Shown here: positions 752-18,256 of the stretch, piece by piece
How the letters are laid out: every line of letters starts with the position of its first letter
Position numbering within the stretch: the stretch's first letter is position 1
Assembly: GCA_015066515.1 (NCBI GenBank)
Contig: SVOH01000022.1
Location: forward strand, 1 to 33,650
Reading direction: 5' to 3'
Source of the DNA: Oscillospiraceae bacterium
GTDB taxonomy: Bacteria; Bacillota; Clostridia; Oscillospirales; Acutalibacteraceae
Length of the DNA stretch: 33,650 nt
Notes under the pieces: model-generated
The model's database searches: none
The model's input: only the letters and a program-made list of their open reading frames with translations
Told to the model about the DNA's origin: nothing
Made by a program: the position numbers and the translations under genes

Positions 752-785
752 TTTTGCTGAATAATATTTGGGGGACACTTTCAGT

Positions 786-2567
786 ATGGAAATATTAATA
801 GAATCCACCGGTGCAACACAAATACTCATAATGTTTGCAATGCTTGTTGGCGGTTTGGCATTTTTTATGTACGGAATGAATGTAATGTCAAGCGGACTTG
901 AAACAATGGCGGGCGGCGGATTAGAGCGCACTATGAAAAAGGTTACCGCAAATGACTTTTTGGGATTTTTCTTGGGTGCAGGTATAACCGTTGCTATTCA
1001 GTCATCATCAGCATTTACTGTAATGCTTGTAGGTCTTGTTAACTCCGGTATTGTTCAGTTTGGTAATACGTTTGGTATGATAATGGGTTCAAACGTAGGT
1101 ACTACCCTTACTGCGTGGATACTTAGTCTTGCCGGTATCAGTAAGGACAGTTTTGTAATGACACTGTTACAACCAATGACCTTTTCGCCCATACTTGCAT
1201 TTATAGGTATAGTAATCCGAATGTTTACCAAATCCGAAAAAAAGCATAATCTTGGTATTATATTCATTGGCTTTGCAGTGCTTATGTTTGGTATGGAGTT
1301 AATGAGTGCTTCAATGGTATCTGTTCGAGAAATACCGGGATTTGATAAATTTTTAGCAAGTCTTTCAAGCCCTATAATTGCACTGCTGGTATCCACTATA
1401 TTTACAGGTGTCATTCAGTCATCGGCTGCGACAATCGGTATCGTTCAGGCTTTGGCCCTCTCGGGTGGTATTACTTGGCAGATGGCAATACCGCTTGTGC
1501 TTGGTGCAAATATCGGTACGTGTGTTACTGCGCTTATTTCAAGCGTTGGTACCAATAAAAATGCAAAGCGCGTTGTAATAATGCATTTCTTTGTAAACGT
1601 GTTTGGTTCGGGAATTTGTATGATCATAATGTACATTATGAAAGCGCTTGGTGTAGCATTGCTTGGTGCCGAAATTGGTATGGTTGGCGTTGCAATAGTT
1701 CATACGCTGTTTAATGTTGTAACTACTGTTGTTTTATTCCCCATAAAAAAAATTCTCATTGGTTTTTGTGCAAAACTTGTACCAGAAGACAAGGAAGAAA
1801 AACAGCACACGGCTTTCTTGGACGAGCGTATATTTAACAATACACCGCTTGCAATTAGCGAGTGCCGCCGTCTTTCAAACGAGATGGCAGATTATACTCG
1901 TCAGGCAATAATGTCATCGCTTGATATTATTGCTGGCTATGATGAGTCAAAAGCCAAGTTTGTAAAAGATATAGAAACACTTACCGATAAATATGAGGAC
2001 AAGCTGGGCACTTATCTTGTGCGCCTTAGCAGTAACAATCTTACCGAAGACGATTCGCACGCGGTATCGCGTATGCTACATTCGCTTAGTGACTTTGAGC
2101 GTATAAGCGACCATGCACTTAATCTTTGCGGAACTGCTCTTGAAATAAAAGAAAAGAATATTGTATTTTCAAATGATGCAAAGCGTGAGTTAGGAGTTAC
2201 AATTCAGGCGCTTAGAGAAATCGTAGATATTACAATCGATTCTTATGTACACGACGACTTTGAAAAGGCAGCTCAAGTAGAGCCTATCGAGCAGGTAATA
2301 GATAAACTTAAAGATGACCTTAAGGCGCGTCATATAGACAGACTTCAAAAGGGTGAATGTACAGTTCAAATGGGATTTGTATTCTCTGACTTGCTTACCA
2401 ATATAGAGCGTGTTTCTGACCATTGTTCAAATATCGCTGTTTATACAATTCAACGGGATTCACCAAAGCTTGATACCCATAAATATTTAAGAAATGTAAA
2501 AACCGACGCTGTTGGTAATTTTGTGGAAGAATACAATATATACGAAAAGAAGTATTCACTTGATTAG
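786..2567 (+). CDS. Na+/phosphate cotransporter family protein with C-terminal PhoU-like domain
   Basis: Membrane protein of the Na/Pi-cotransporter II family (PF02690 repeats; NptA/YjbB-like), 593 aa, predicted to move inorganic phosphate with sodium. The two inverted-repeat signatures are visible: QSSSA near residue 72 and QSSAA near residue 211, each in a hydrophobic hairpin, with about nine membrane segments before residue 335. From about residue 355 to the end the protein is soluble and helical, with two SDFERISDH/SNIERVSDHC-type motifs typical of PhoU repeats. I chose ATG 786, with GGGGGA at 770-775 as its ribosome site; the frame opens earlier with TTG at 768, but that codon overlaps the ribosome site. 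The stop codon is part of the ribosome site of the following lipoprotein gene, so the two are translationally linked. Confidence 0.9.
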   Translation: MEILIESTGATQILIMFAMLVGGLAFFMYGMNVMSSGLETMAGGGLERTMKKVTANDFLGFFLGAGITVAIQSSSAFTVMLVGLVNSGIVQFGNTFGMIMGSNVGTTLTAWILSLAGISKDSFVMTLLQPMTFSPILAFIGIVIRMFTKSEKKHNLGIIFIGFAVLMFGMELMSASMVSVREIPGFDKFLASLSSPIIALLVSTIFTGVIQSSAATIGIVQALALSGGITWQMAIPLVLGANIGTCVTALISSVGTNKNAKRVVIMHFFVNVFGSGICMIIMYIMKALGVALLGAEIGMVGVAIVHTLFNVVTTVVLFPIKKILIGFCAKLVPEDKEEKQHTAFLDERIFNNTPLAISECRRLSNEMADYTRQAIMSSLDIIAGYDESKAKFVKDIETLTDKYEDKLGTYLVRLSSNNLTEDDSHAVSRMLHSLSDFERISDHALNLCGTALEIKEKNIVFSNDAKRELGVTIQALREIVDITIDSYVHDDFEKAAQVEPIEQVIDKLKDDLKARHIDRLQKGECTVQMGFVFSDLLTNIERVSDHCSNIAVYTIQRDSPKLDTHKYLRNVKTDAVGNFVEEYNIYEKKYSLD

Positions 2568-2578
2568 GAGGTCTATTT

Positions 2579-4006
2579 ATGATTAAAAGAATTGTAGCGT
2601 TGGCTTTATGTATTGTTATGGCAATAGGTTTATTTGGATGTGATAAGGCATCAAAATTACCTAAATATGCTGAAAAGCAGTTTGAAATTTCGGGCTTTTG
2701 GGCGCCTTATGAAATAACTGAAGAAGCTTTTAAGCAGTATAAAGATGTTGGCTTTACACACCTTGCAATGATAAATCATTCGCTTGGCGGTACAAGTGAA
2801 GAGCAGTTTTATTTGGGTTCGGACCGCACAATGAAATCACTTGAAATTTGTAAAAAAGTTGGTCTTAAAGCAATACTTAATTACAATGACTGGATGGTTC
2901 CTCGCTGTGAAGAAGAGGGCGAAGATTTTTACGGTGACACGCCATTTAGTAAGTTTGACATTTATGGCGATTACAAGGATATAATCACAGGCATACACAT
3001 ATGTGATGAGCCTTACTTGAAAAATTGGAACAATCAAAATCATTTTGAACTCTATGGTAATAAAACCCTTATAGATGATTTTAAAAAGATATATCCTGAT
3101 GCTAAGTATATAGTAAATCTTATCCCTTATACAGCATATGCAAGTCGTGGATTTGAAAGCTACGATGAAATGATGGAACTTTATGAGAAAACATTTATGG
3201 ATCCGTTTGAAAAACCAATGGTATCGGTAGACGTTTATCCGTTCCATCAGGACAACAAACAAGATGACGGAACGTTGCTTCTTAACTATCAGTACATTGC
3301 AAACTCTGCTAAAAAATACGGTGTAAAGCCTACTTTCATTTTGCAGTCAAGCGTAGGCGGAGCAGACGAGGGCAGAAAAGAATTTGAAATGGAGCTTAGC
3401 GAAAGTGATCTTCGCTGGGAGGTATATAATGCCTTAGCATATGGCACCGATAGTTTACAATATTATTGCTATTCTGTTCCAAAGAGCTTTGATGAAGACG
3501 GAAACGAAGTGTTTATGTACGATAATTGTATATTAAATCGTGACGATACACCAAGTGATGTTTATTATAGCTTACAAAAAATACATAAAGAAATACAGTC
3601 TTTTGCAAGTGTTATTCTCGCTTATGACTGGGCTCAGACGGTTGGTGTAACAGGTGTAGATGACCAAACCTTTAGAATGAGTCAAATTGAACTTGACCAT
3701 ACAACGTGGAAACCTATTAGATTGAATGATTGCGAAATCTATGAAGATGCTACCAGTACACATGATATGTTAATAAGCCGTTTCACAAGTAAAGAATACG
3801 GCGAAGCATATTTATTCCTCAACTGGGCAGAGCGTGGTGACAGCAATACAATAACTGCTACATTTAAAAATTGCAAGTCAGTTGCTATCTATGGCGGCAT
3901 AGGTTTTGAGGGTACTCCTGAGATAGTAGAACTTGACGAAAACGGCAAGTTTGAACTTAAACTCGAATATGGTGAAGGTGTGTTTGTAACACCATTAACG
4001 AAATAA
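2579..4006 (+). CDS. Putative glycoside-hydrolase-like lipoprotein, tandem paralog 1 of 6
   Basis: 475 aa. The signal peptide ends in lipobox LFG-Cys21, so the mature protein should be anchored outside the cell membrane. The rest fits a (beta/alpha)8 barrel. Strand-like segments are ISGFWAP (37-43), LAMINHS (62-68), LKAILNYNDW (96-105), ITGIHICDEP (136-145), KYIVNLIP (175-182), VSVDVYPF (214-221), FILQSS (252-257) and LQYYCYSVP (292-300). A C-terminal beta domain ends in YGEGVFVTPL. E144 in the strand-4 DEP motif sits where clan GH-A enzymes carry the acid/base Glu (NEP). No named family or substrate can be assigned. Very similar to paralog 4 (shared SYDEMMELYEKTFM, NSAKKYGVKP, EFEMELSE). AGGAGG at 2566-2571 overlaps the stop of the phosphate transporter gene. 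Confidence 0.8.
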   Translation: MIKRIVALALCIVMAIGLFGCDKASKLPKYAEKQFEISGFWAPYEITEEAFKQYKDVGFTHLAMINHSLGGTSEEQFYLGSDRTMKSLEICKKVGLKAILNYNDWMVPRCEEEGEDFYGDTPFSKFDIYGDYKDIITGIHICDEPYLKNWNNQNHFELYGNKTLIDDFKKIYPDAKYIVNLIPYTAYASRGFESYDEMMELYEKTFMDPFEKPMVSVDVYPFHQDNKQDDGTLLLNYQYIANSAKKYGVKPTFILQSSVGGADEGRKEFEMELSESDLRWEVYNALAYGTDSLQYYCYSVPKSFDEDGNEVFMYDNCILNRDDTPSDVYYSLQKIHKEIQSFASVILAYDWAQTVGVTGVDDQTFRMSQIELDHTTWKPIRLNDCEIYEDATSTHDMLISRFTSKEYGEAYLFLNWAERGDSNTITATFKNCKSVAIYGGIGFEGTPEIVELDENGKFELKLEYGEGVFVTPLTK

Positions 4007-4014
4007 TATGTTTA

Positions 4015-4049
4015 AACAAGGACTTTTCTATGTAAAGGTCCTTGTTTTT
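4015..4049 (+). terminator. Rho-independent terminator after paralog 1
   Basis: AACAAGGAC (4015-4023) pairs with GTCCTTGTT, with an inner TTT/AAA extension across one bulge, followed by a T run. It separates npt-paralog 1 from the next transcription unit, which has its own promoter directly downstream. Confidence 0.85.
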
Positions 4050-4050
4050 C

Positions 4051-4079
4051 TTGATTATAATCACATAATGTGTTAAAAT
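4051..4079 (+). promoter_or_regulatory. Sigma-A promoter for paralogs 2-3-4
   Basis: TTGATT (4051-4056), 17-nt spacer, TAAAAT (4074-4079), with an upstream TG (4071-4072) making an extended -10. It lies just after the terminator. It also rules out the upstream GTG at 4070 as the start of paralog 2, because that codon lies inside the promoter. Confidence 0.7.
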
Positions 4080-4114
4080 TTTACTATAAAATAATTTTTA
4101 GCAAGGTGAATAAA

Positions 4115-5521
4115 ATGAAAAATCTAAAAAAAATAATTTGTAGTTGTTTGGTTTGTATTGTTTGTTGCACCTTGTGCTCATGTGGCAAACCATCGAAAAA
4201 GGATCTGCCCCAATATCCCAGCCAAGAATTTGAAATTTGTGGTTTGTGGGCACCGCACGAGATGAGTGAGCAAGCTTTTAAACTTTATAAAGACGCAGGT
4301 TTTAATGTTGTTTCATTTACCAATCATGACGAGATGCCACGTAGCAGTGAAAATCAGTATTATATAGGCTCAAAGCGTACATTAGAGGCGCTTAAGCTTT
4401 GTAAAAAAGTAGGTATCGACGCTTACATAGCGTATGGTGCGTCTTGGTTTAACCGCCACAACGAAGGCGACGAATATTTTGATAAGAAACCCTTTAGCAC
4501 CTATGACCAGTACGGTGAATATAAGGATATAATAAAAGGTGTACATATAAACGACGAACCCAACAAAGAAACAATGGCAAGTTTAGCCAAAGACGAGTTG
4601 ATAGAAGACTTCAAGAAGGTTTTTCCAAATACAAAATATATGATAAACCTCATTCCTGCAACGGCAGTGACAAGCAGGGATTTTGTGGATTATGATGAAA
4701 TGCTAAAGATTTACGGAGAAACAATTATGTCAAAATTTGAAAATCCGTATATTTGCGTGGATGTGTACCCGTTTTCAAATTCTAAGAACCCAGAAATGAT
4801 GATGCTTTACAATTATAATGAAATAGCTAAATGCGCTCAAAAATATAACGCTGAAACAAGCTTTATTTTACAGTCAAGCACAGGTAATGAGTTTTTAGAA
4901 AGCTTAAGCGAGGGTGATATGCGTTTACAGGTGTATACTGCTCTTGCCTTTGGCGCCGATAATTTACAGTATTATTGTTATTCGGTACCAACTAGTTATA
5001 GTGAAGACGGTAGCGAGATCGAAAGTTATTTATATAGCCATTGTATGCTTGAGCGGGATCAAAAAACTCCCAATCAATTATACTATGATGTAAAGACCGT
5101 AAACCAAGAAATTCAAAAATTTGCAAGTGCGATTTTAGCTTACGACTGGAAACAGGCTATAGGTATATCGGGCACCGAGGATCAGACCTTCCGTGTGTGC
5201 AGTATAGAATATGACACAAATTTTGAGCGGCGTGCTCTTGAAAATACAAAGCATTATGTTTCGGCAACAGCTACTCTGGATTTAGTTTTAAGCCACTTTA
5301 CAAGCAACGAGTATGGCGAAGGGTATATGTTTGTAAACTTTGCAAGAGCCGAAAGCAATAACAATAAGTTAACAGCAACCTTTAAGGATTGCGGTGCTGT
5401 AGCAATTTACGGTGGAAAAGATTACTCAGGTACGCCAAGGATTGTACCACTTGATGAAAACGGTCAGCTAAATCTTGAACTTAATTACGGTGAGGGTGTT
5501 TTTGTGACACCGCTTGTATAA
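4115..5521 (+). CDS. Putative glycoside-hydrolase-like lipoprotein, tandem paralog 2 of 6
   Basis: 468 aa from ATG 4115 (AAGGTGA at 4103-4109). The signal peptide is unusually Cys-rich, with Cys at 9, 11, 14, 17, 18, 21 and the probable lipid-modified Cys23 (LCSC). The barrel follows the array pattern: ICGLWAP (41-47), SFTNHDEMPR (67-76), IKGVHINDEP (140-149, candidate acid/base E148), INLIPATA, ICVDVYPF, FILQSS, LQYYCYSVP, then a C-terminal beta domain ending YGEGVFVTPLV. Its N-terminal third differs from paralogs 1, 4 and 5 (SFTNHDE in place of MINHS) and is shared with paralog 6. First gene of the 2-3-4 unit. Function is inferred only from fold pattern; the substrate is unknown. Confidence 0.8.
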   Translation: MKNLKKIICSCLVCIVCCTLCSCGKPSKKDLPQYPSQEFEICGLWAPHEMSEQAFKLYKDAGFNVVSFTNHDEMPRSSENQYYIGSKRTLEALKLCKKVGIDAYIAYGASWFNRHNEGDEYFDKKPFSTYDQYGEYKDIIKGVHINDEPNKETMASLAKDELIEDFKKVFPNTKYMINLIPATAVTSRDFVDYDEMLKIYGETIMSKFENPYICVDVYPFSNSKNPEMMMLYNYNEIAKCAQKYNAETSFILQSSTGNEFLESLSEGDMRLQVYTALAFGADNLQYYCYSVPTSYSEDGSEIESYLYSHCMLERDQKTPNQLYYDVKTVNQEIQKFASAILAYDWKQAIGISGTEDQTFRVCSIEYDTNFERRALENTKHYVSATATLDLVLSHFTSNEYGEGYMFVNFARAESNNNKLTATFKDCGAVAIYGGKDYSGTPRIVPLDENGQLNLELNYGEGVFVTPLV

Positions 5522-5534
5522 GGGGCTTATTGAT

Positions 5535-6935
5535 ATGTTGAAGAGAATATTAAGTTTTTTGTTGATGTTGTTATTATTAACGGGACTTGTAGCCTGCAAG
5601 GGCGGTAATAGCGAGACTCAATTACCGAAATACTCCCAAAAAGAGTTTGGTATAGCGGGCTTTTGGGCGCCGTATGATATAAGTGAAGAAGGCTTAAAAC
5701 AATATAAAGAGGCCGGACTAAACACACTTCTTATGGTAAATCACGCGGGGGAAAGAACTAGCAAGGAACAGTTTTATCTAGGCTCTGAACGCACCATGAC
5801 TACACTTGAAAACTGTAAAAAGGTTGGACTTAAGGCTATAATTAGTTACAATGATTGGGTAGCCGCCTCTTGCGAAGGAGAGGGTAGTGATTATTATGGT
5901 GAAACGCCGTTTAGCAAATTTGATATTTATGGTGACTATAAAGATATAATAACCGGTGTGCATATAGTTGACGAGCCAAAGACTATTCACTTGCCAATAT
6001 ATGGTAATCAAACACTTATAGAAGATTTTAAAAAGATTTATCCAAATGCTCTTTATATTGCAAACCTGCTACCACTTTCGGCAGGCGTAAAAAGCTATGG
6101 CTACGTCGATTATGATGATATGCTTAACCAGTTTGAAGAAAATTTTATGAAGCCGTTTGATAAACCGTACATTTCGGTAGATGTTTATCCGTTTCATATT
6201 AAGGTTCCTGACACACATTTGTATCTTGCACAAAATTATCAGATGATTGCTGAATGTGCAAAGAAATATGACGCTACTAAAGCATTTATTTTACAAGCAA
6301 GCACAGGTTCAGAATTTGAAGATACACTCACCGAGGGCGATATGCGTTGGCAGGTGAATGCGGCGGTTGCCTTTGGTGCGGATGAAATTCAGTATTATTG
6401 TTATTCAAGTCCATATTCTTTAAATGATAATGGCGAAAAGGAACACAGATATAATTACTGTATGTTAAACAGTGATAATACACCAAGTGATGTCTATTAT
6501 TACGTTCAAAAAGTAAACAAAGAAATACAAAATTTTGCAAGTGTGATTTTGTCGTATGACTGGGATGATTCTTTGGGCATAGAGGGTAGCGAAGAATCCA
6601 GTTACCGATTAAGCTCACATATTTACGACGAAACATATACAAACAAAAAAGAGTTTAAAGATGCAAAGCATTACGTATCATCAACGGCTACAAAGGATTT
6701 ATTGGTTAGTAGATTTGAATCAGAGCAATATGGTGAAGGCTATATGCTTGTAAACTTTGCTAAGCGTGATCAAAAAAATTCTATAGAGGTCATATTTAAG
6801 GACTGCGACCAAGTTGCGATTTACGGTGGAGTGGATTATAGCGGTACACCCGATATAGTCTCACTTGACGAAAATGGCAAATTAAAACTGGAACTTCAGT
6901 ACGGTGAGGGTGTGTTTGTTACACCAATTGTATAA
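5535..6935 (+). CDS. Putative glycoside-hydrolase-like lipoprotein, tandem paralog 3 of 6
   Basis: 466 aa from ATG 5535, with AAGGGG (5520-5525) overlapping the stop of paralog 2 at 5519-5521. The lipobox is LVA-Cys21. Barrel landmarks are IAGFWAPYDIS (40-50), LMVNHAGERTS, AIISYNDW (101-108), ITGVHIVDEP (139-148, candidate acid/base E147), LYIANLLP, ISVDVYPF, FILQAS and IQYYCYSSP, followed by the EQYGEGYMLVNFA ... YGEGVFVTPIV beta domain. It differs from the other copies by QAS in place of QSS at strand 7 and SSP in place of SVP at strand 8. It is probably co-transcribed between paralogs 2 and 4 (13- and 15-nt gaps). Likely an extracellular carbohydrate-active protein; substrate not deducible. 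Confidence 0.8.
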   Translation: MLKRILSFLLMLLLLTGLVACKGGNSETQLPKYSQKEFGIAGFWAPYDISEEGLKQYKEAGLNTLLMVNHAGERTSKEQFYLGSERTMTTLENCKKVGLKAIISYNDWVAASCEGEGSDYYGETPFSKFDIYGDYKDIITGVHIVDEPKTIHLPIYGNQTLIEDFKKIYPNALYIANLLPLSAGVKSYGYVDYDDMLNQFEENFMKPFDKPYISVDVYPFHIKVPDTHLYLAQNYQMIAECAKKYDATKAFILQASTGSEFEDTLTEGDMRWQVNAAVAFGADEIQYYCYSSPYSLNDNGEKEHRYNYCMLNSDNTPSDVYYYVQKVNKEIQNFASVILSYDWDDSLGIEGSEESSYRLSSHIYDETYTNKKEFKDAKHYVSSTATKDLLVSRFESEQYGEGYMLVNFAKRDQKNSIEVIFKDCDQVAIYGGVDYSGTPDIVSLDENGKLKLELQYGEGVFVTPIV

Positions 6936-6950
6936 TATGAGGGTGAAAAT

Positions 6951-8570
6951 ATGAAGAAATTTTTATGCTTTATACTTGCAATGATAATGGTATTATCGCT
7001 TGTGTCATGTAGAAAAATAAATGAACAGAGTGCATATAGCTCGGGTGAAAATTCAGAGCTTTCATGGGGCACCGTTGAAATAATAGAAGGTACCGATAAA
7101 AACTCATCACCATCACAACAGGATAATTCTAACACTCAGAATAATTCATCAAGCGGAAATGGGTCTTCAAATTCTAATAACGCTTCTTCTGAAAACGAGC
7201 AAGACGCTTTAAAACCGTATACAGGTAATTTGTCAACCTTGGCAGAGGGAAAATTGCCGCAATTTGCAAACCGCGAATTTGAAATATCGGGCTTTTGGGC
7301 GCCGTATGAAATAACGGAGGAAAGTTTTAAAACGTATAAAAACGTTGGCTTTACTACTCTTGCAATGATAAATCATTCGCTCGGCAACACAAGCGAGGAG
7401 CAATTTTATCTTGGCTCTCAGCGCACAATGAAGGCGCTCGAGGTTTGCCGCAAGGTGGGTCTTAAGGCTATTTTAAATTATAACGATTGGATGGCCGAAC
7501 GTGTAAGCGGTGACAAGAACTATAATGGTAATACTCCTTTTAGCAAGTACGATCTTTACAGTGATTACAAGGACATTATTACAGGTGTGCATATTTGTGA
7601 TGAGCCGTATAAAGATCGGCATTTTCCGTTGTATGGAGATAAAACTCTTATTAATGATTTCCAAAAGGTTTATCCTAACGCTAAATTTATAGTAAATCTA
7701 ATACCATATACAGCGAGTTCGAGTCGAGGATTTGCTTCTTACGATGAAATGATGGAGCTTTATGAAAAAACATTTATGGAACCGTTTGAAAATCCTTTTG
7801 TATCGGTTGACGTGTATCCGTTCCATCAAGGTTCTAAACAAGACGACGGTACATTGGCTTTGAATTATGAATACATAGCAAATTCGGCAAAGAAGTACGG
7901 CGTAAAGCCTGGATATATTCTTCAGTCAAGTGTTGGCGGTGCTGACACGGGTAACAAAGAATTTGAAATGGAGCTTAGTGAGGGAGATTTGCGCTGGGAG
8001 ATAAATTCTGCTTTGGCGTTTGGCGCAGATACACTTCAATATTATTGCTACTCCGTTCCGGGTTCAATCAGTGATGGCCAAATGGTATATATGTATGATT
8101 ACTGTATACTTAACAGGGATAATACTCCGAGTCCGATTTATTATCACTTACAGAAGTTGCACAATGAATTAAAAAACATTTCTAATGTAATACTTGCGTA
8201 TGATTGGGATGAATCAATTGGAGTTTTAGGTACAGAGGATTATGTCGGCCGAGTTGCAACCTTGGTTTATGATGAAGACTTTAATGTTAAAACTTTTAAA
8301 AATTCAAAACATTTTGTGTCAGCCACATCGACCCAAGAGACACTTGTTAGTAGATTTACAAACAAAGAATATGGTGAGGGATATATGTTTGTGAATTTTG
8401 CTGATAGAAAAAGCAGTACCGTTACAGCAAAATTCAGAGATTGCAAGTCGGTTGCTATATATAACGCTTCAAAGGGAGACGAGCCCCAAATTGTAAAAAC
8501 CGATAAAGAAGGGCAATTTACTCTTGAATTTGAGTATGGTGAAGGTGCGTTTATAGTACCGCTTAAATAG
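6951..8570 (+). CDS. Putative glycoside-hydrolase-like lipoprotein with Ser/Asn-rich linker, tandem paralog 4 of 6
   Basis: 539 aa, the longest copy. The extra length is a tether between lipobox LVS-Cys20 and the barrel. Residues 21-100 hold a low-complexity Ser/Asn/Gln stretch (about 51-82) that would lift the domain off the membrane. The barrel begins at EISGFWAPYEITEE (111-124), with LAMINHS, AILNYNDWM, ITGVHICDEP (210-219, candidate acid/base E218), VNLIPYTA, VSVDVYPF, YILQSS and LQYYCYSVP, then a beta domain ending YGEGAFIVPLK. Outside the tether it is close to paralog 1 and is probably a duplicate of it. The ribosome site GAGGGTGA is at 6939-6946. Last gene before a strong terminator. 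Confidence 0.8.
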   Translation: MKKFLCFILAMIMVLSLVSCRKINEQSAYSSGENSELSWGTVEIIEGTDKNSSPSQQDNSNTQNNSSSGNGSSNSNNASSENEQDALKPYTGNLSTLAEGKLPQFANREFEISGFWAPYEITEESFKTYKNVGFTTLAMINHSLGNTSEEQFYLGSQRTMKALEVCRKVGLKAILNYNDWMAERVSGDKNYNGNTPFSKYDLYSDYKDIITGVHICDEPYKDRHFPLYGDKTLINDFQKVYPNAKFIVNLIPYTASSSRGFASYDEMMELYEKTFMEPFENPFVSVDVYPFHQGSKQDDGTLALNYEYIANSAKKYGVKPGYILQSSVGGADTGNKEFEMELSEGDLRWEINSALAFGADTLQYYCYSVPGSISDGQMVYMYDYCILNRDNTPSPIYYHLQKLHNELKNISNVILAYDWDESIGVLGTEDYVGRVATLVYDEDFNVKTFKNSKHFVSATSTQETLVSRFTNKEYGEGYMFVNFADRKSSTVTAKFRDCKSVAIYNASKGDEPQIVKTDKEGQFTLEFEYGEGAFIVPLK

Positions 8571-8572
8571 TT

Positions 8573-8603
8573 AAAAACTCCTCTTTAAAAGAGGAGTTTT
8601 TTT
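8573..8603 (+). terminator. Rho-independent terminator after paralog 4
   Basis: Perfect 13-bp stem, AAAAACTCCTCTT (8573-8585) with AAGAGGAGTTTTT (8589-8601), a 3-nt TAA loop and a T run. It ends the paralog 2-3-4 unit. Confidence 0.92.
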
Positions 8604-8619
8604 GTTTTTGAAAATTAGG

Positions 8620-8648
8620 TTGAATTTAGCAAAATTTAGCAGTATAAT
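8620..8648 (+). promoter_or_regulatory. Sigma-A promoter for paralogs 5-6 (and probably pgsA)
   Basis: TTGAAT (8620-8625), 17-nt spacer, consensus TATAAT (8643-8648). The start codon at 8679 and its AAGGAG (8664-8669) leave a short leader. No operator-like dyad is evident. Confidence 0.82.
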
Positions 8649-8678
8649 AAATAAAATTACAACAAGGAGTATTGTGCT

Positions 8679-10061
8679 ATGGTAAGAAAATTAATAGTTT
8701 TATTCCTATCGGTCGTTATGATTTTATCAGCGGTAGGCTGTAAATCAGACGGATTACCCAAATATCCTGAAAAGTCATTTGAAATATCAGGATTTTGGGC
8801 GCCATACGAATTGACTGAAGAAACCTTTAAGCAATATAAGGATGTTGGCTTTACCACCTTTGCGATGATAAATCATTCACTTGAAAAAAACAGCGAAAAT
8901 CAGTTTTATCTTGGTTCTGACCGTACTATGAAAGCGCTTGAGCTTTGTCGTAAGACAGGGCTTAAAGCTATTTTGCAATATGGAGATTGGCTGGCTACTT
9001 GGTCGGAACAAAACGAGGACTATTATAACGAAACACCGTTTAGTCAGCATGACCTATATGGCGAGTATAAAGATATAATTACAGGCATAAGCATTGTTGA
9101 CGAGCCTTCAAAGGATCATTATGACGGTAGATATAACAGCAAGGCTATGATGGATGATTTTCAAAAGGTTTATCCCGATGCTTATTACATAGTAAACCTT
9201 TCGCCAAGATATGCAGGCGGAACATACTGGGATTTTGCCAATTACGATGAGCTTGTCGATACCTATGAAAAAGAGATAATGACTCATTTTGACAAAAAGT
9301 TTATTTCGGTTGACTGTTATCCCTTCCGTAACGAAGAAAAAAACAAGTATGCTCGCCATCAGGATTGGCTTTTAGGTCATGAGATTATCGCTAACCTCGC
9401 TAAAAAGCACGATGCATACAAAACCGCAATTATACAAAGCAGCGTTACTAATGAATTTGCTTCGGTGCTTACAGAAGGCGATATGCGTTTGCAGGTAAAT
9501 GTTGCGCTCGCATTTGGTTTTGACCACATACAGTATTATTGCTATGAAGTGCCTAGGTCATATAATGAAGATGGCACGGTCAATTATATGTACGAGCATT
9601 GTATTTTAAACCAAGACAGTACACCTAATGAAATGTACTATTGGTTGCAGGATATTCACAAAGAAATACAGTCGTTTTCCAGCGTAATACTCGCTTATGA
9701 CTGGGACAGCATTATCGCACGAAATCCTGTAGGCTTTAGCAGCAATACGGATATGATGCAGATGTTAGACCGCGAATTTGAAAATGCTAAGCACTTTGAT
9801 AAAACAATATCATCTACCGACGTTGCAATCAGCCGTTTTACAAGTGAGAAATATGGTGAGGCATATATGTTTGTAAATTATGCTCAAAGAGATGCGAAAA
9901 ACAACGTTGTTACTGCAACCTTTAAGGATTGTAAAAAGGTGGCAGTATACGGTGGCAACGGTTTTGACGGCACACCAAAAATCGTAGAGCTTGATGAGGA
10001 AGGCAAGTGCCGATTTGAATTTGAATACGGCGAGGGCGCATTTGTAGTACCTGTTGTTTAA
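8679..10061 (+). CDS. Putative glycoside-hydrolase-like lipoprotein, tandem paralog 5 of 6
   Basis: 460 aa, the shortest copy, with lipobox AVG-Cys21 and almost no linker. Barrel segments are ISGFWAPYELTEE (36-48), FAMINHSLEKNSENQ, AILQYGDW, ITGISIVDEPSK (134-145, candidate acid/base E142), YIVNLSPRYA, ISVDCYPFRNEE, AIIQSS and IQYYCYEVP. The beta domain ends YGEGAFVVPVV. The strand 5-6 segment (SPRYA, YPFRNEE, a DW insertion) and the NPVGFSSN motif after the barrel are shared only with paralog 6. It resembles paralogs 1 and 4 at its N-terminus. First gene of the third unit; paralog 6 follows after 11 nt. Confidence 0.8.
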   Translation: MVRKLIVLFLSVVMILSAVGCKSDGLPKYPEKSFEISGFWAPYELTEETFKQYKDVGFTTFAMINHSLEKNSENQFYLGSDRTMKALELCRKTGLKAILQYGDWLATWSEQNEDYYNETPFSQHDLYGEYKDIITGISIVDEPSKDHYDGRYNSKAMMDDFQKVYPDAYYIVNLSPRYAGGTYWDFANYDELVDTYEKEIMTHFDKKFISVDCYPFRNEEKNKYARHQDWLLGHEIIANLAKKHDAYKTAIIQSSVTNEFASVLTEGDMRLQVNVALAFGFDHIQYYCYEVPRSYNEDGTVNYMYEHCILNQDSTPNEMYYWLQDIHKEIQSFSSVILAYDWDSIIARNPVGFSSNTDMMQMLDREFENAKHFDKTISSTDVAISRFTSEKYGEAYMFVNYAQRDAKNNVVTATFKDCKKVAVYGGNGFDGTPKIVELDEEGKCRFEFEYGEGAFVVPVV

Positions 10062-10072
10062 AAGGAGAAAAT

Positions 10073-11485
10073 ATGAGTAAAAAAATTATTGTGTTTGTTT
10101 TATCTTTGGTTTTGACGTTATCTTTGACAGGGTGCGGCCAATCGCAGCCCGAGTCACAGCCACCCAAACCGCAAAATGCTGATACTAAAACCGAATTACC
10201 GCAGTATGAGGATCACGAATTTATCATTAGTGGACTTTGGGCACCAAGAGATGTATCTGAAGAAGGGTTTAAGCTGTATAAAGATGCAGGCTTTACGGCG
10301 TTGTCGTTTTCAAATCACGATGAACTGCCGAGAACGTCTGACAATCAGTATTACATAGGCTCTAATCGCACTATGGAAGCCTTAAAACTTTGCAAAAAAG
10401 TAGGCCTTGACGCAATTTTAGGTTACGGAGACAATTGGTACGTTCTCGAAATTGAGGGTGATGATTATTTTGACGGCACTCCATTCAGTAATTATGACTA
10501 CTATAATGATTATAAGGATATAATAAAAGCTGTTAAAATAAAGGATGAACCCAGCAAGGAGCACATCGATAAATACAAGTCTGAAACTCTTATAGAAGAT
10601 TTTAAAAAGGTTTACCCCGATGCACAGTATTTTATGACCATAACACCCAGACACGCAAGTCCAACTGCGTACGGTTTTGGTTCTTACGATGAGATGCTTG
10701 CTTATTATGGCGAAAATATTTTAAGCAGATTTGATAATTCTCTTATGGAGGTTGACTTTTACCCATTCCCAAACGAAGAGCACAGAGAATATCCACGTTG
10801 GGACGATTGGGTTATTACCTATGAGGCAATAGCCGAAACCGCAAAAAAATATAATGCAGACGTATCAATCATTATGCAGTCAAGTGCAGGTCTTGAATTT
10901 GCAAAAGATCTTACCGAAGCTGATATGAGATTTCAGGTTAATATGGCTCTTGCCTTTGGTGCTAAAACACTGAAATATTATTGTTATACCGTTCCTACAA
11001 TACAGTACACATATAATTATTGTATACTTGATCCCAACAATAAACCCAGCGCTCTTTACGGATACGTAAAGGATATACACAAGGAAATACAGTCTTATGC
11101 CGACGTAATTCTCTCTTATAAGTGGGACAGTGTTATAGGGTCAAACCCCGTAGGTTTCAGCAGTAATATGGATATGTCGAAATTGTTGCTTGAAAATGAA
11201 TTTAAAGACACCAAGCATTTTGAACACGTACTTTCTTCTACGGACTTGGTTATAAGTCGTTTTGTAAGTGAAAAGTATGGTGAAGCATATATGCTTGTAA
11301 ACTATGCGCAAAAAGATGCGAAAAACAACGTTGTTACCGTAACCTTCAAGGATTGTAGCCGACTGGCACTGTACGGTGGGAAAGGCTTTGACGGTACGCC
11401 CAAAATTGTAGAGCTTGACGAAGAAGGTAAATACCGCTTCGAGTTTGAGTACGGTGAAGGTGTTTTTGTCGTACCAATGGTATAA
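10073..11485 (+). CDS. Putative glycoside-hydrolase-like lipoprotein, mosaic tandem paralog 6 of 6
   Basis: 470 aa, lipobox LTG-Cys21, then a Gln/Pro-rich tether (about 22-42). The barrel has ISGLWAPRDVSEE (52-64), SFSNHDELPR, AILGYGDNW, IKAVKIKDEPSK (151-162, candidate acid/base E159), FMTITPRHA, MEVDFYPFPNEE, IIMQSS and LKYYCYTVP. The beta domain ends YGEGVFVVPMV. Residues up to about 112 resemble paralog 2 (KLYKDAGF, NHDE.PR, NQYYIGS, EALKLCKKVG), whereas the sequence from DEPSK onward resembles paralog 5 (NPVGFSSN, NYAQ.DAKNNVVT, EYGEG). A 23-nt stretch at 9891-9913 and 11315-11337 is identical between copies 5 and 6. The strand-8 segment lacks the EDG insert of its relatives. The ribosome site is AAAGGAGA at 10060-10067. 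Confidence 0.8.
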   Translation: MSKKIIVFVLSLVLTLSLTGCGQSQPESQPPKPQNADTKTELPQYEDHEFIISGLWAPRDVSEEGFKLYKDAGFTALSFSNHDELPRTSDNQYYIGSNRTMEALKLCKKVGLDAILGYGDNWYVLEIEGDDYFDGTPFSNYDYYNDYKDIIKAVKIKDEPSKEHIDKYKSETLIEDFKKVYPDAQYFMTITPRHASPTAYGFGSYDEMLAYYGENILSRFDNSLMEVDFYPFPNEEHREYPRWDDWVITYEAIAETAKKYNADVSIIMQSSAGLEFAKDLTEADMRFQVNMALAFGAKTLKYYCYTVPTIQYTYNYCILDPNNKPSALYGYVKDIHKEIQSYADVILSYKWDSVIGSNPVGFSSNMDMSKLLLENEFKDTKHFEHVLSSTDLVISRFVSEKYGEAYMLVNYAQKDAKNNVVTVTFKDCSRLALYGGKGFDGTPKIVELDEEGKYRFEFEYGEGVFVVPMV

Positions 11486-11565: not shown

Positions 11566-12078
11566 ATGTCGTTTGGTAGACTGTGTTTAATACCCATAAT
11601 TGTGTGGTTGTATTGTTTTGAAAAGAATTATCTATGGACAACGGTGATTTTTATAATATCTGGACTTAGCGATATTGTAGATGGTTTTATTGCTCGAAAA
11701 TTTGATATGATAAGTGACTTCGGCAAGGCTTTTGACCCGGTAGCAGATAAGCTTACTCAAATTGCGATGCTGTTTTGTCTGGTAACGCGTTTTCCGCTTA
11801 TGCTGATACCGCTGATTATTCTAATCATAAAAGAATCGCTCGCTGCAATAATGAATATGATAACTCTTGAAAAGGCCGGCTTTGTAGTGGCGGCTAAATG
11901 GCACGGAAAGCTTAATACTGTGCTCATTTATTCAATGATGTTTGTACATATTGTGTGGTTTAATATTCCGGAAATAGTTTCAGATGTTTTAATCGGCATA
12001 TGCATTGCTATGATGGTTATATCATCATTCCTTTACACCAAATCAGACGTAAAGGCAATAAAAAAAGAAAAAGAGTAA
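11566..12078 (+). CDS. pgsA: CDP-alcohol phosphatidyltransferase, likely CDP-diacylglycerol--glycerol-3-phosphate type (PgsA-like)
   Basis: Integral membrane enzyme that replaces CMP in CDP-diacylglycerol with an alcohol; glycerol-3-phosphate is the likely acceptor, giving the phosphatidylglycerol precursor. The full family signature D-x2-DG-x2-AR-x8-G-x3-D-x3-D is present from SDIVDGFIARK to FDPVADK, with several membrane helices. The coordinates begin at the first canonical start (170 aa), but this is probably too short. The upstream in-frame codons encode KNKIITIPNI, and the IPN motif before the first helix is a hallmark of the family, so translation probably begins at ACG 11509 (189 aa), which has the only ribosome site. 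Likely co-transcribed with paralog 6. The glycerol-phosphate assignment is from family resemblance; other CDP-alcohol acceptors are possible. Confidence 0.82.
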   Translation: MSFGRLCLIPIIVWLYCFEKNYLWTTVIFIISGLSDIVDGFIARKFDMISDFGKAFDPVADKLTQIAMLFCLVTRFPLMLIPLIILIIKESLAAIMNMITLEKAGFVVAAKWHGKLNTVLIYSMMFVHIVWFNIPEIVSDVLIGICIAMMVISSFLYTKSDVKAIKKEKE

Positions 12079-12120
12079 AATTAATGGCTTGGAGAAAATA
12101 TCCAAGCCATTAATTTTATA
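12077..12120. terminator. Bidirectional terminator between pgsA and thrS
   Basis: Perfect 17-bp stem (12077-12093 with 12101-12117), GC-rich at the tip (GGCTTGGA/TCCAAGCC) with A/T tracts at both feet, so it can end the plus-strand pgsA and the minus-strand thrS transcripts. The 5' arm begins inside the pgsA stop codon. Confidence 0.88.
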
Positions 12121-15766: not shown

Positions 15767-18244
15767 TTAAACAAGACCTTCCATAAGGTTTGTTTCGGTA
15801 AAACTTTTACCGTCAAAGCGTATGGTTTTTATTTCGTATTTACCAAATTGTATTTCCATTTGTGCATCATAAAAATGCAAGATGCAATTCTGTGACTTTT
15901 CGGTTGGATTAAAGAGTCTTATAATATAACCTTCGCCATTATCGGCTTTTTTAAATGCATTTATTGTAACACAATCGGTATTAGAAAGCTTAAGTGGTGA
16001 TTTTGGTATTGTTCCAATTCCTGTTGGGTAGAATGAAAGTGTCATAGGCTTCATATTAAAGTGCTGAGCTTTTCTTGCGGCAAGAGGTCTAACGATATTG
16101 CTTTTACCAACGCTAAACAAAAAGCTAAAATCACGTTCGCCCTGTTCAATGTACGGCATATATCGGTCTTGCGGCATAACAACACGGTCGTCCACAGGAT
16201 GCGCACAGTAAGATGCTGAACGCAATAGTGTGTATTTTAATGTTCCCGATTTACTGTCAAAGCAAGAACCGTAGATACCGTTGTTTATTGCAACAAGAGT
16301 GTCATTGTTGTCCGATACATAGATGAATTTTTGAGATACGTTTTCTTCTAACTCGTCTTTAAGTTGTTCTTCACCATAAGGCTGTTCGCCAATACAAACA
16401 CTATCTTTAAGTGCGGTAGGAATATTTAGGCGCAGCATACGCTGCTTTTCGCCCCAATTCACACGTACGTCAAGCTTTAATTCGCCGTTTTCACCAAGTA
16501 TATATTTTACCACAGCATAAGAATTTTTGTAGCCAAAAACCGCTTCGATAATTGTTTGTACGTCACCATCTTCAATAATATGAACCGACGGAATTTCGTT
16601 TTCCAGATACAAGAATTCTTTTGCCTTAGCAGGAGTTAAAAGACTGAATTCGCCAAGTTTTTCTTTAAATGCGGTTACATTCATACCCCACGGGTCAAAG
16701 TCATCGTTAAATACCTCAAGACCAAATGCACCGCTTTGTACGTAGTTTTTACCGTCCTTAATGTATTCGTCAACAAGACCTGTAGCGGTGTTGATTTTGA
16801 TTTTTGTACCGCCGCGGTTAAGAATAAAGTAGCCGTTTTCTTGTGTAGCGTTAAGTGTCGGACGCTCTGGGTAGGTTTCGAAAGCGCAGTCAAAACGGTT
16901 AAGCGTCATAGGAGCAAGGGTAGCTCTTATAACTACGCGTTTTCTCCAGTTAATAGGAATAGTGCTATATTCTTTTTCGCATTGCGATGGAACAATATTA
17001 CCGTCTTTGTCGTAAACCACAGGTTTCATAAAATAAAGGTTGCGGTCTTGGTCCCAAAGGTTAAATTCACAAACAATATCCTCGGTAATTTCGTAGGGGT
17101 ATGGGTTGTAAACAAAAACGGGAATTTTATCACTGTCAGCTTTTTTCTGGCCCGATGCAAGTGCAAAAAATGCCTTTGCTTTAAGTCGTGTCAAAATTTC
17201 AATAGCGTGGTCCATCATACGAATACCCATTTCTTCAGCAGGTTGAATAGAAGAGCCGGGTAAAACATCGTGAAACTCTACCGTCATAATATCATACATA
17301 GCGTCCGAAAGTTCTTTAAATGGATACTCCATAAGGCCTTCGTTCGCTGCGTGCGAGCACATAATCTCGGTAAGGTAGTATGCGTTTTCAGCCGCCCTGT
17401 GCTTTTGTTTTACACGGATTTGTGAGGTGTAGCAGCCTACCGCCCAGCACCAAAGACTATGGTGAACCTCAGGCAAGTCGTGATGCTTTATTGTTTCGGC
17501 AAGATACTCTTCGGGTGTGGAGTGAACAAGGTCGACGCCCTTTTCTTTTAATTCTTTTTTAAGAATAATAAGGTCGTCAAGGTCTTTTTTAGAAGGACCG
17601 CCGCCGTGGTTACCGATACCCCAAAGTCGCATATTTATGTCACCGTCTGGGCACTGATTAACGGTTGCATTTATGTATTCTGCAGCGTGACCCTTTGGCG
17701 TACTGTACCAACCGTGAGGACGCATACCAACCACCTTTGAACCGTCGTAGCCTACCCAAGTATAGTCGTTGGCCGGCATTGTTAGGTGCTGTGGTTGCGG
17801 GCGCATATGTACGTAGCCCTTATAACCGCTTTTTGCCATAATTTGAACAAGACCGCGGCTGTGACCGAAAGAGTCAAAGTTAATAGCAACGTGTGGTGCT
17901 TTACCAAACTTTTCTAAAAAGTATTTTCTACCGGTGAGCATTTGACGAACAAAGCTTTCGCCAGAGGGCATATTGCAGTCGGGCTGTACGTGCCAACCGC
18001 CCATAATATGCCATTTGCCGCGCTTTACAAGGTCTTGTATACGGGCAAAAAGTGGTGGATCAAATTGTTCTATCCAATCATATAATAAGACCTCGTTGTG
18101 ACAAAAAATATAATCTTCGTATTGCTCGCAAAAATCTGCCGCTATGCGAAATGTAGAGAGCGCTTCGGCGGCGCCTTCCTCCCATTCCCATTGCCAAATA
18201 GGATCTAAGTGCGCATTGCAAATGATATAGGTTTTTTTAGCCAT
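15767..18244 (-). CDS. Alpha-mannosidase, glycoside hydrolase family 38
   Basis: 825 aa, no signal peptide, so probably cytoplasmic; expected to release alpha-mannose from short oligosaccharides. The GH38 zinc site starts with AHLDPIW (H12, D14). GGWHVQPDCNMPSGESFVRQ follows near residues 82-101. The nucleophile motif is NFDSFGHS (D124, H128 nearby), and NHGGGPS supplies the later histidine. The central helical and C-terminal beta domains are present, so it is full length. I chose ATG 18244; the frame could open six bases earlier at TTG 18250, but AAGGAGT (18258-18252) fits the ATG better. Last gene of the DUF2156-GNAT-GH38 operon, 12 nt after the GNAT gene. Mannose specificity is from family membership. 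Confidence 0.93.
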   Translation of the reverse strand: MAKKTYIICNAHLDPIWQWEWEEGAAEALSTFRIAADFCEQYEDYIFCHNEVLLYDWIEQFDPPLFARIQDLVKRGKWHIMGGWHVQPDCNMPSGESFVRQMLTGRKYFLEKFGKAPHVAINFDSFGHSRGLVQIMAKSGYKGYVHMRPQPQHLTMPANDYTWVGYDGSKVVGMRPHGWYSTPKGHAAEYINATVNQCPDGDINMRLWGIGNHGGGPSKKDLDDLIILKKELKEKGVDLVHSTPEEYLAETIKHHDLPEVHHSLWCWAVGCYTSQIRVKQKHRAAENAYYLTEIMCSHAANEGLMEYPFKELSDAMYDIMTVEFHDVLPGSSIQPAEEMGIRMMDHAIEILTRLKAKAFFALASGQKKADSDKIPVFVYNPYPYEITEDIVCEFNLWDQDRNLYFMKPVVYDKDGNIVPSQCEKEYSTIPINWRKRVVIRATLAPMTLNRFDCAFETYPERPTLNATQENGYFILNRGGTKIKINTATGLVDEYIKDGKNYVQSGAFGLEVFNDDFDPWGMNVTAFKEKLGEFSLLTPAKAKEFLYLENEIPSVHIIEDGDVQTIIEAVFGYKNSYAVVKYILGENGELKLDVRVNWGEKQRMLRLNIPTALKDSVCIGEQPYGEEQLKDELEENVSQKFIYVSDNNDTLVAINNGIYGSCFDSKSGTLKYTLLRSASYCAHPVDDRVVMPQDRYMPYIEQGERDFSFLFSVGKSNIVRPLAARKAQHFNMKPMTLSFYPTGIGTIPKSPLKLSNTDCVTINAFKKADNGEGYIIRLFNPTEKSQNCILHFYDAQMEIQFGKYEIKTIRFDGKSFTETNLMEGLV

Positions 18245-18256
18245 ATTCAAAACTCC

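Follow-up and report, generated by a model that had tools for sequence, protein, structure and literature searches.

Beta-galactosidases of family GH42 are retaining enzymes, and the GH164 beta-mannosidases are retaining enzymes that employ two Glu residues. Clan GH-A is described as sharing a common retaining mechanism with catalytic glutamates (PMC5725463). For GH123 and its kin, an Asp-Glu pair has been assigned the roles of acetamido stabiliser and of acid/base, on the basis of mutants and thiazoline complexes, and GH123 catalysis without an enzyme nucleophile has been described (PMC11087588). Here we report on an array of six consecutive lipoprotein genes at positions 2579-11485 (forward strand) of a 33,650-nucleotide stretch of DNA from an Oscillospiraceae bacterium (contig SVOH01000022.1, assembly GCA_015066515.1). 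This whole stretch, hereafter the window, is contig 37 of a host genome of 2.0 Mb that is 98% complete. A narrow look at the literature found no paper on this protein family, nothing on DUF4434 by name or on the clan's Asn, and nothing on point for tandem paralogues; the one mucinolysome paper found does not describe the family in the portion of its text available.

Predicted fold and nearest families of the six lipoproteins

A preliminary description, made from the sequence alone, had listed six same-strand lipoprotein genes coding for 460-539 aa, and these were confirmed, all six intact, as follows:

2579..4006, + strand: copy 1, lipoprotein of 475 aa with barrel and beta-sandwich
4115..5521, + strand: copy 2, 468 aa from the ATG at 4115; Pfam GH42 at 21.9 bits
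5535..6935, + strand: copy 3, 466 aa from the ATG at 5535; long branch, no clear orthologue in the tree
6951..8570, + strand: copy 4, 539 aa, with an additional Ser/Asn/Gly-rich spacer after the lipid anchor
8679..10061, + strand: copy 5, 460 aa
10073..11485, + strand: copy 6, 470 aa; barrel modelled too

By eye, a Shine-Dalgarno-like sequence precedes the ATGs of copies 2 and 3. Every copy begins with a hydrophobic leader, judged by eye, that runs into a lipobox-type Cys (C21, invariant in the alignment), and the lipid-anchored products are presumably located at the cell surface. In a whole-length alignment the identities of copies 2-6 to copy 1 were 50, 55, 65, 54 and 45%, far beyond chance, and the matches to copy 3 at E<=0.001 in the host genome were confined to these six places.

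Structure prediction gave confident models of copies 1 and 6 as a (beta/alpha)8 barrel with a C-terminal beta-sandwich. The barrel strands of the copy 1 model are b1 10-14, b2 35-37, b3 71-75, b4 110-117, b5 150-155, b6 190-193, b7 226-230 and b8 266-270, and their order is the same in the copy 6 model. The eight shared sequence blocks of the preliminary description lie at the ends of these eight strands (copy 1 model), and its reading of the fold as a TIM barrel of GH-A type, whose acid/base Glu sits on strand 4, agrees with both models and with the profile alignments.

Two alignments were used for the profile comparisons. A2 is the closer one, with 29 rows, and A3 holds 34 rows that were picked by hand from profile hits, further hits being omitted. 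Of the A3 rows, 26 represent distant members, 5 are copies from the window and 3 are near relatives; 10 of the 34 come from genome G052. Searched against the PDB, the A3 profile matched GH42-type beta-galactosidases with a whole-sequence E of 5.9e-9 and a best single stretch of 3.5e-6 (five alignments shown), while profile A2 alone found no match there and copy 1 alone was uninformative. Comparison by hhalign, in which it is the ranking that counts since E-values from one template are uncalibrated, placed A3 nearest to 14 GH42 proteins (probability 98.5 over 266 columns), followed by 14 GH123 proteins (92.1 over 119 columns) and 10 GH5 proteins (54.1); the controls, of 11 proteins each, gave 0.7 (ThrRS-like) and 0.2 (transporter). 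Plain GH20 was ruled out by the same comparison (16.2 with 8 weak rows, 0.4 with 4 strong rows). When Foldseek rows were ranked by E-value, barrels of other GH families came on top and an entry titled GH42 stood at rank 46; a structural second look and the profile comparisons put GH42 in first place. As modelled, the copies carry a (beta/alpha)8 barrel that matches GH42 structures.

Pfam GH42 reached its cut-off in one of six copies (copy 2, 21.9 against 21 bits), was listed below it in two and unlisted in three, and no further GH42 domain was found in the six at E<=1. None of the six exceeded its NCBIfam cut-off, and among A3 members the one strong NCBIfam match, CelK, was in a single member and probably derives from its dockerin. 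As background only, the GH42 matches of the host genome are the array copies and one sub-threshold place. The copies are shorter than GH42 beta-galactosidases (PF02449), the 14 GH42 frames measuring 656-716 aa, and they share 10-13% identity with the GH164 beta-mannosidases. A weak Pfam match to DUF4434 (PF14488) was seen in 3/34 A3 members (best 2.1e-4) and in none of the six copies; the PF14488 search matched 4/99 genomes and its result was not used. The barrel is best described as related to GH42. The proteins have no clear named family, in agreement with the preliminary description, whose assignment to a GH-A-like class of surface glycosidases appears largely right.

An altered active site and its possible mechanism

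The residues in question, in the numbering of the copy 1 model, are encoded as follows:

3005..3013, + strand: Asp117-Glu118-Pro119, end of strand 4, in 34/34 A3 rows
3230..3238, + strand: Asp192-x-Tyr194, end of strand 6, in 34/34 A3 rows and also kept in GH42
3341..3346, + strand: Leu229-Gln230, on strand 7; in the alignments GH42 has its nucleophile Glu at the place of Leu229

By the PDB alignment as well as by hhalign, the GH42 counterpart of Glu118 is the acid/base Glu, that of Asp117 the Asn before it, that of Asp192-x-Tyr194 the D-x-Y and that of Leu229 the nucleophile Glu; in 4uoq the counterpart of Leu229 is the mutated residue 324, which is the nucleophile according to the entry title. 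The Asn, the acid/base Glu, the Asp, the Tyr and the nucleophile Glu were each present in 14/14 GH42 proteins. Throughout A3, the Asn before the acid/base Glu is replaced by Asp, so that the strand-4 pair reads Asp-Glu in all 34 rows, and position 229 is acidic in none (I 16, L 6, V 5, M 3, T 2, P 1, N 1), nor is it in any of the 29 rows of A2 (L 18, M 7, I 4). Asp117, Glu118 and Asp192 are the sole acidic residues among the invariant columns of A3, and together with Tyr194 they persist in distant rows just 17-24% identical to copy 1. The family is thus distinguished from GH42 by the loss of one of the two clan-defining acids and by the alteration of the residue beside the remaining one. Plain GH42 was rejected on both grounds. 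The clan GH-A arrangement of two catalytic Glu residues on strands 4 and 7, which the preliminary description had implied, does not hold for these proteins, and a two-Glu mechanism is not right for them because the nucleophile is gone.

The strand-4 triplet recalls GH123. Among 14 Clostridia GH123 proteins the D was found in 13/14, the E in 14/14 and the following P in 14/14, and the copies resemble them both in the consecutive Asp-Glu-Pro on strand 4, similar to the catalytic DE pair of GH123, and in a profile match over strands 1-4. The copies differ from GH123 in having no N-terminal beta-sandwich: both models start with barrel strand 1, and ahead of the barrel the precursors carry a leader, an anchor and, in copy 4, the spacer, and nothing else. 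Pfam GH123_cat had no match at E<=1 in the six copies. The structural rows listed for the two models, 50 for each, contained no GH123 entry, which does not count against a fold match. By eye, Tyr194 and Tyr269 may be the counterparts of Y392 and W431, the conserved substrate-binding residues of NgaLy, in a region (strands 5-8) that is not reliably aligned; position 269 is Tyr in 26/34 A3 rows.

We tentatively propose, at a confidence a little short of even, that the array codes for tandem lipid-anchored surface glycosidases in which a GH42-related barrel with a rebuilt active site would cleave 2-acetamido sugars with assistance from the substrate. Glu118 on strand 4 would be retained as general acid/base. 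The Asn of clan GH-A has become Asp117 and the strand-7 nucleophile Glu is absent; Asp117 would hold the 2-acetamido group of a beta-linked N-acetylhexosamine, and the carbonyl of the substrate would take the place of the missing enzyme nucleophile in the manner of GH123. Both hydrolysis and the class of substrate are predictions from these residues. A GH123-like mechanism is the leading inference and not a statement of membership, since strands 5-8 are not reliably aligned.

Several observations weigh against this proposal. The GH123 match is dependable over strands 1-4, and over strands 5-8 its register differs between the global and local modes. With the closer alignment A2 the hhalign result was weaker, at 92.0 over 179 columns for GH42 and 49.1 over 28 for GH123, and GH20, another family with a DE pair, did not align with A3. 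Asp192 and Tyr194 say nothing for GH123-like chemistry because GH42 has both. The A3 counts are not independent, its rows being our own choice and nearly a third of them coming from one genome. No glycan cluster surrounds the array, and GH20 or GH123 genes occur in just 3 of the 28 stretches that bear relatives (L190, L191 and L043; the 28 represent 27 places, L088 and L191 overlapping), in one of which the gene is about 10 kb off with unrelated genes between. An inverting mechanism or a role in binding only would fit the same residues.

A conserved link to hexosaminidases was considered, but 3/28 stretches are too few to rely on. The relative in L190 has a strong GH20 behind it and a GH123-like protein at a greater distance. 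As background only, the host genome holds 5 GH20 and 3 GH123 matches and no GH5. On its contig 40 (L192, 3925-6878) there are tandem GH123-like genes of 495 and 485 aa, near a gene that by eye resembles a ROK-type kinase.

The invariance of three acidic residues in A3, together with the loss of the nucleophile, would also suit an inverting or otherwise nucleophile-free glycosidase, with Glu118 serving as acid and water being activated directly by Asp117 or Asp192, whose substrates need not be N-acetylated. We regard this as doubtful, as the DEP pair resembles that of GH123 and Asp192, being invariant (14/14) in GH42, a retaining family, needs no new role. That the copies are dead enzymes, surface glycan-binding proteins whose GH42-like cleft captures oligosaccharides in several versions, appears unlikely. 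In its favour, 34/34 rows lack one of the two catalytic acids of clan GH-A, a lipid anchor with a spacer suits a capture protein, and genes for solute-binding proteins and permeases are found close to relatives in L043 (a sugar-type binding protein and two permeases, with a GH123-like lipoprotein) and in L081 (a binding protein and a permease). This account has to reckon with the four residues that remain invariant across the distant rows and with the invariant columns of the close copies, which are enriched at the catalytic face (19/53, p 0.03; face defined from strand ends, without coordinates), a pattern unusual for a dead site.

Returning to the proposed substrate-assisted glycosidases, the six copies would most likely have their chemistry in common and be set apart by their outer loops, the length of the spacer and their expression. 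The preliminary description had suggested substrate diversification or dosage; dosage, like differential expression, may apply. Three clades of the tree are fixed differently at 15 positions. Of these, 2 belong to the C-terminal barrel face, compared with 73 of the 305 positions tested (p 0.53; 27 of the 36 tree rows, copy 3 and eight further rows standing outside the three clades, and much-gapped positions unscored). Diversification of the catalytic pocket is therefore unsupported, since the clade-distinguishing positions are not concentrated at the face, and the core pocket looks common to the copies. Loop insertions after strands 4 and 7 differ between copies and could change the outer subsites.

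Layout, expression and history of the array

The array is bounded by two genes:

768..2567, + strand: Na/Pi cotransporter with PhoU domains, ending 11 bp ahead of copy 1 and syntenic among the array carriers seen
11566..12078, + strand: CDP-alcohol phosphatidyltransferase, situated downstream of copy 6 and likewise syntenic among these carriers

The statement in the preliminary description that no transporter is linked has accordingly to be withdrawn. Four gaps measure 11-15 bp, namely the one ahead of copy 1 and those that separate copies 2-3, 3-4 and 5-6, and two wide gaps of 108 bp each follow copies 1 and 4. The wide gaps contain the following signals, both hairpins being strong:

4014..4047, + strand: terminator-like hairpin of 14 pairs with a T run, after copy 1
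4051..4079, + strand: promoter-like site, before copy 2
8573..8601, + strand: terminator-like hairpin of 13 pairs with a T run, after copy 4
8620..8648, + strand: promoter-like site TTGAAT-17-TATAAT, before copy 5; kept in the sister species (L038)

In the sister species the spacer, compared from 4004 on, is found identical from position 10905 of L038 for 129 bases, into copy 2, and it sits there between the second and third copies, i.e. at a different copy boundary. The whole scan yielded 12 terminators against 7.9 +/- 2.8 expected by chance and 53 promoters against 40.9 +/- 6.2; weight is given to position and conservation because the scan overall is not far above chance. These signals suggest three likely transcription units, one joining the transporter to copy 1, one made up of copies 2-4 and one in which the phosphatidyltransferase follows copies 5-6. 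A hairpin of 19 pairs with T runs on both sides lies between convergent genes at 12075-12119 and is a likely bidirectional terminator. A GH38 alpha-mannosidase is encoded at 15767-18250, about 4 kb off the array, and in L082 a GH38 gene stands beside a triple tandem of relatives.

At the DNA level, six families of direct repeats were listed (60 nt or more, 16-base seed), whose copies are 62-77% identical to the reference copies, so the array is no assembly duplicate. PADLOC gave no match among the six copies, by which a defence system was ruled out, and, as regards spread on plasmids, no match was found with copy 1 as query in 72,556 plasmid records.

The order seen in carriers is an anticodon-domain synthetase (glycyl by eye, and cut by the contig end in the window), the Na/Pi cotransporter, the copies, the CDP-alcohol phosphatidyltransferase and a threonyl-tRNA synthetase (by eye). 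The survey of copy number that the preliminary description had called for found 2-6 copies per carrier: 6 in the host, 5 in G018 (L038/L102), 4 in G032 (L103) and in L036, 3 in G004 (L101) and 2 in G848 (L034/L097). The order is partial, cut by contig ends, in L035, G009 and G034, and G034 has an additional single copy elsewhere (L039/L092). In 11 other members of the genus the transporter was present in all (60-72% identical in ten, 43% in G001) and no family member was found in the short stretches around it; nine of the eleven (all except G846 and G851) were also searched for the array and gave no match. The array looks like a property of one sub-clade, because identity of the threonyl-tRNA synthetase is 51-65% in these eleven genomes and 95-99% in carriers.

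In the 36-row tree, copies 1+4, copy 2 and copies 5+6 formed three supported clades with orthologues from other species, while copy 3 had no firm place. The local amplification claimed earlier, if meant as recent, is ruled out by the orthologues of copies 1, 2, 4, 5 and 6 in other species, which make the duplications old, and also by the DNA repeats, no copy exceeding 77% identity to its reference. Values of dN/dS (NG86) were about 0.07, 0.07, 0.11, 0.06 and 0.07 for copies 1, 2, 4, 5 and 6, computed against G018 (G009 for copy 6) and rough, as dS exceeded 1 for three of them, and copy 3 had no partner; the five copies look to be under purifying selection. In G009 one copy ends early at a stop.

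That the copies are envelope housekeeping enzymes which trim wall or lipoteichoic glycans of the cell itself, in connection with the flanking transporter and phosphatidyltransferase, is very improbable even with flanks that are constant in the carriers seen and a second, more distant phosphatidyltransferase match elsewhere in the host genome (two matches in all), given that distant relatives with dockerin, SLH or F5/8C parts sit elsewhere, that a 56% identical phosphatidyltransferase in G851 has no family member within the 14 kb around it, and that in all eleven other genus members searched the transporter has none in the short stretches around it.

Relatives and significance of the family

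A domain scan of seven long relatives, picked for their length, agreed with the earlier suggestion of carbohydrate-active kin: L083 and L079 have a type I dockerin, L075 and L078 have S-layer domains, F5/8C is accompanied by Ig-like domains in L087 and L091, and L082 gave nothing. L087 also carries an LPXTG-type anchor (20.9 against 20 bits). Two permeases neighbour the relative in L089. Two or more members occur in 13 of the 28 stretches (six of the 28 are from G052), and tandem copies are a habit of the family. Genome G052 (L073-L078) has 25 family matches; several of them are tandem neighbours, and some have S-layer domains fused to them. Stretches L079-L081, from genus members G025 and G002, hold three or four distant members each in the company of 900-1,650 aa proteins, of which one carries a dockerin; L081 also has ABC transporter genes.

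Relatives at E below 1e-100 were found in 6 of the 37 genus members, including the host (60 genomes searched), and a seventh carrier, G848, was found through its flanking gene. The class sample gave 20/391 genomes at E<=1e-10, the host included, with at most four candidates scored per genome. In the phylum sample, searched with A3, 13/398 matched at E<=1e-8: the host, one other strong match (G458) and 11 more. Among these 11, 8 matches are short, lie within frames of 649-724 aa and could represent genuine GH42. A collection with named sources yielded at least 10 loci, the window-like ones from hindgut metagenome-assembled genomes of sheep, water buffalo, roe deer and goat; among the matches listed, a distant locus came from chicken and three from such genomes titled without an animal.

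The proteins are a variant of a known scaffold that presents a testable case for a mechanism switch. It is possible, though we hold the broader claim with limited confidence, that they belong to a large uncharted family derived from clan GH-A, in which the two-Glu mechanism was exchanged for neighbouring-group catalysis, linking GH42 and GH123, and which expanded in tandem on the surface of gut Clostridia. If so, the family would represent natural mechanism switching on a clan GH-A scaffold that keeps its Asp-Glu pair invariant and lacks the nucleophile, and many hypothetical Clostridia proteins anchored by dockerin, SLH or sortase signals would become testable enzymes, possibly acting on host glycans.

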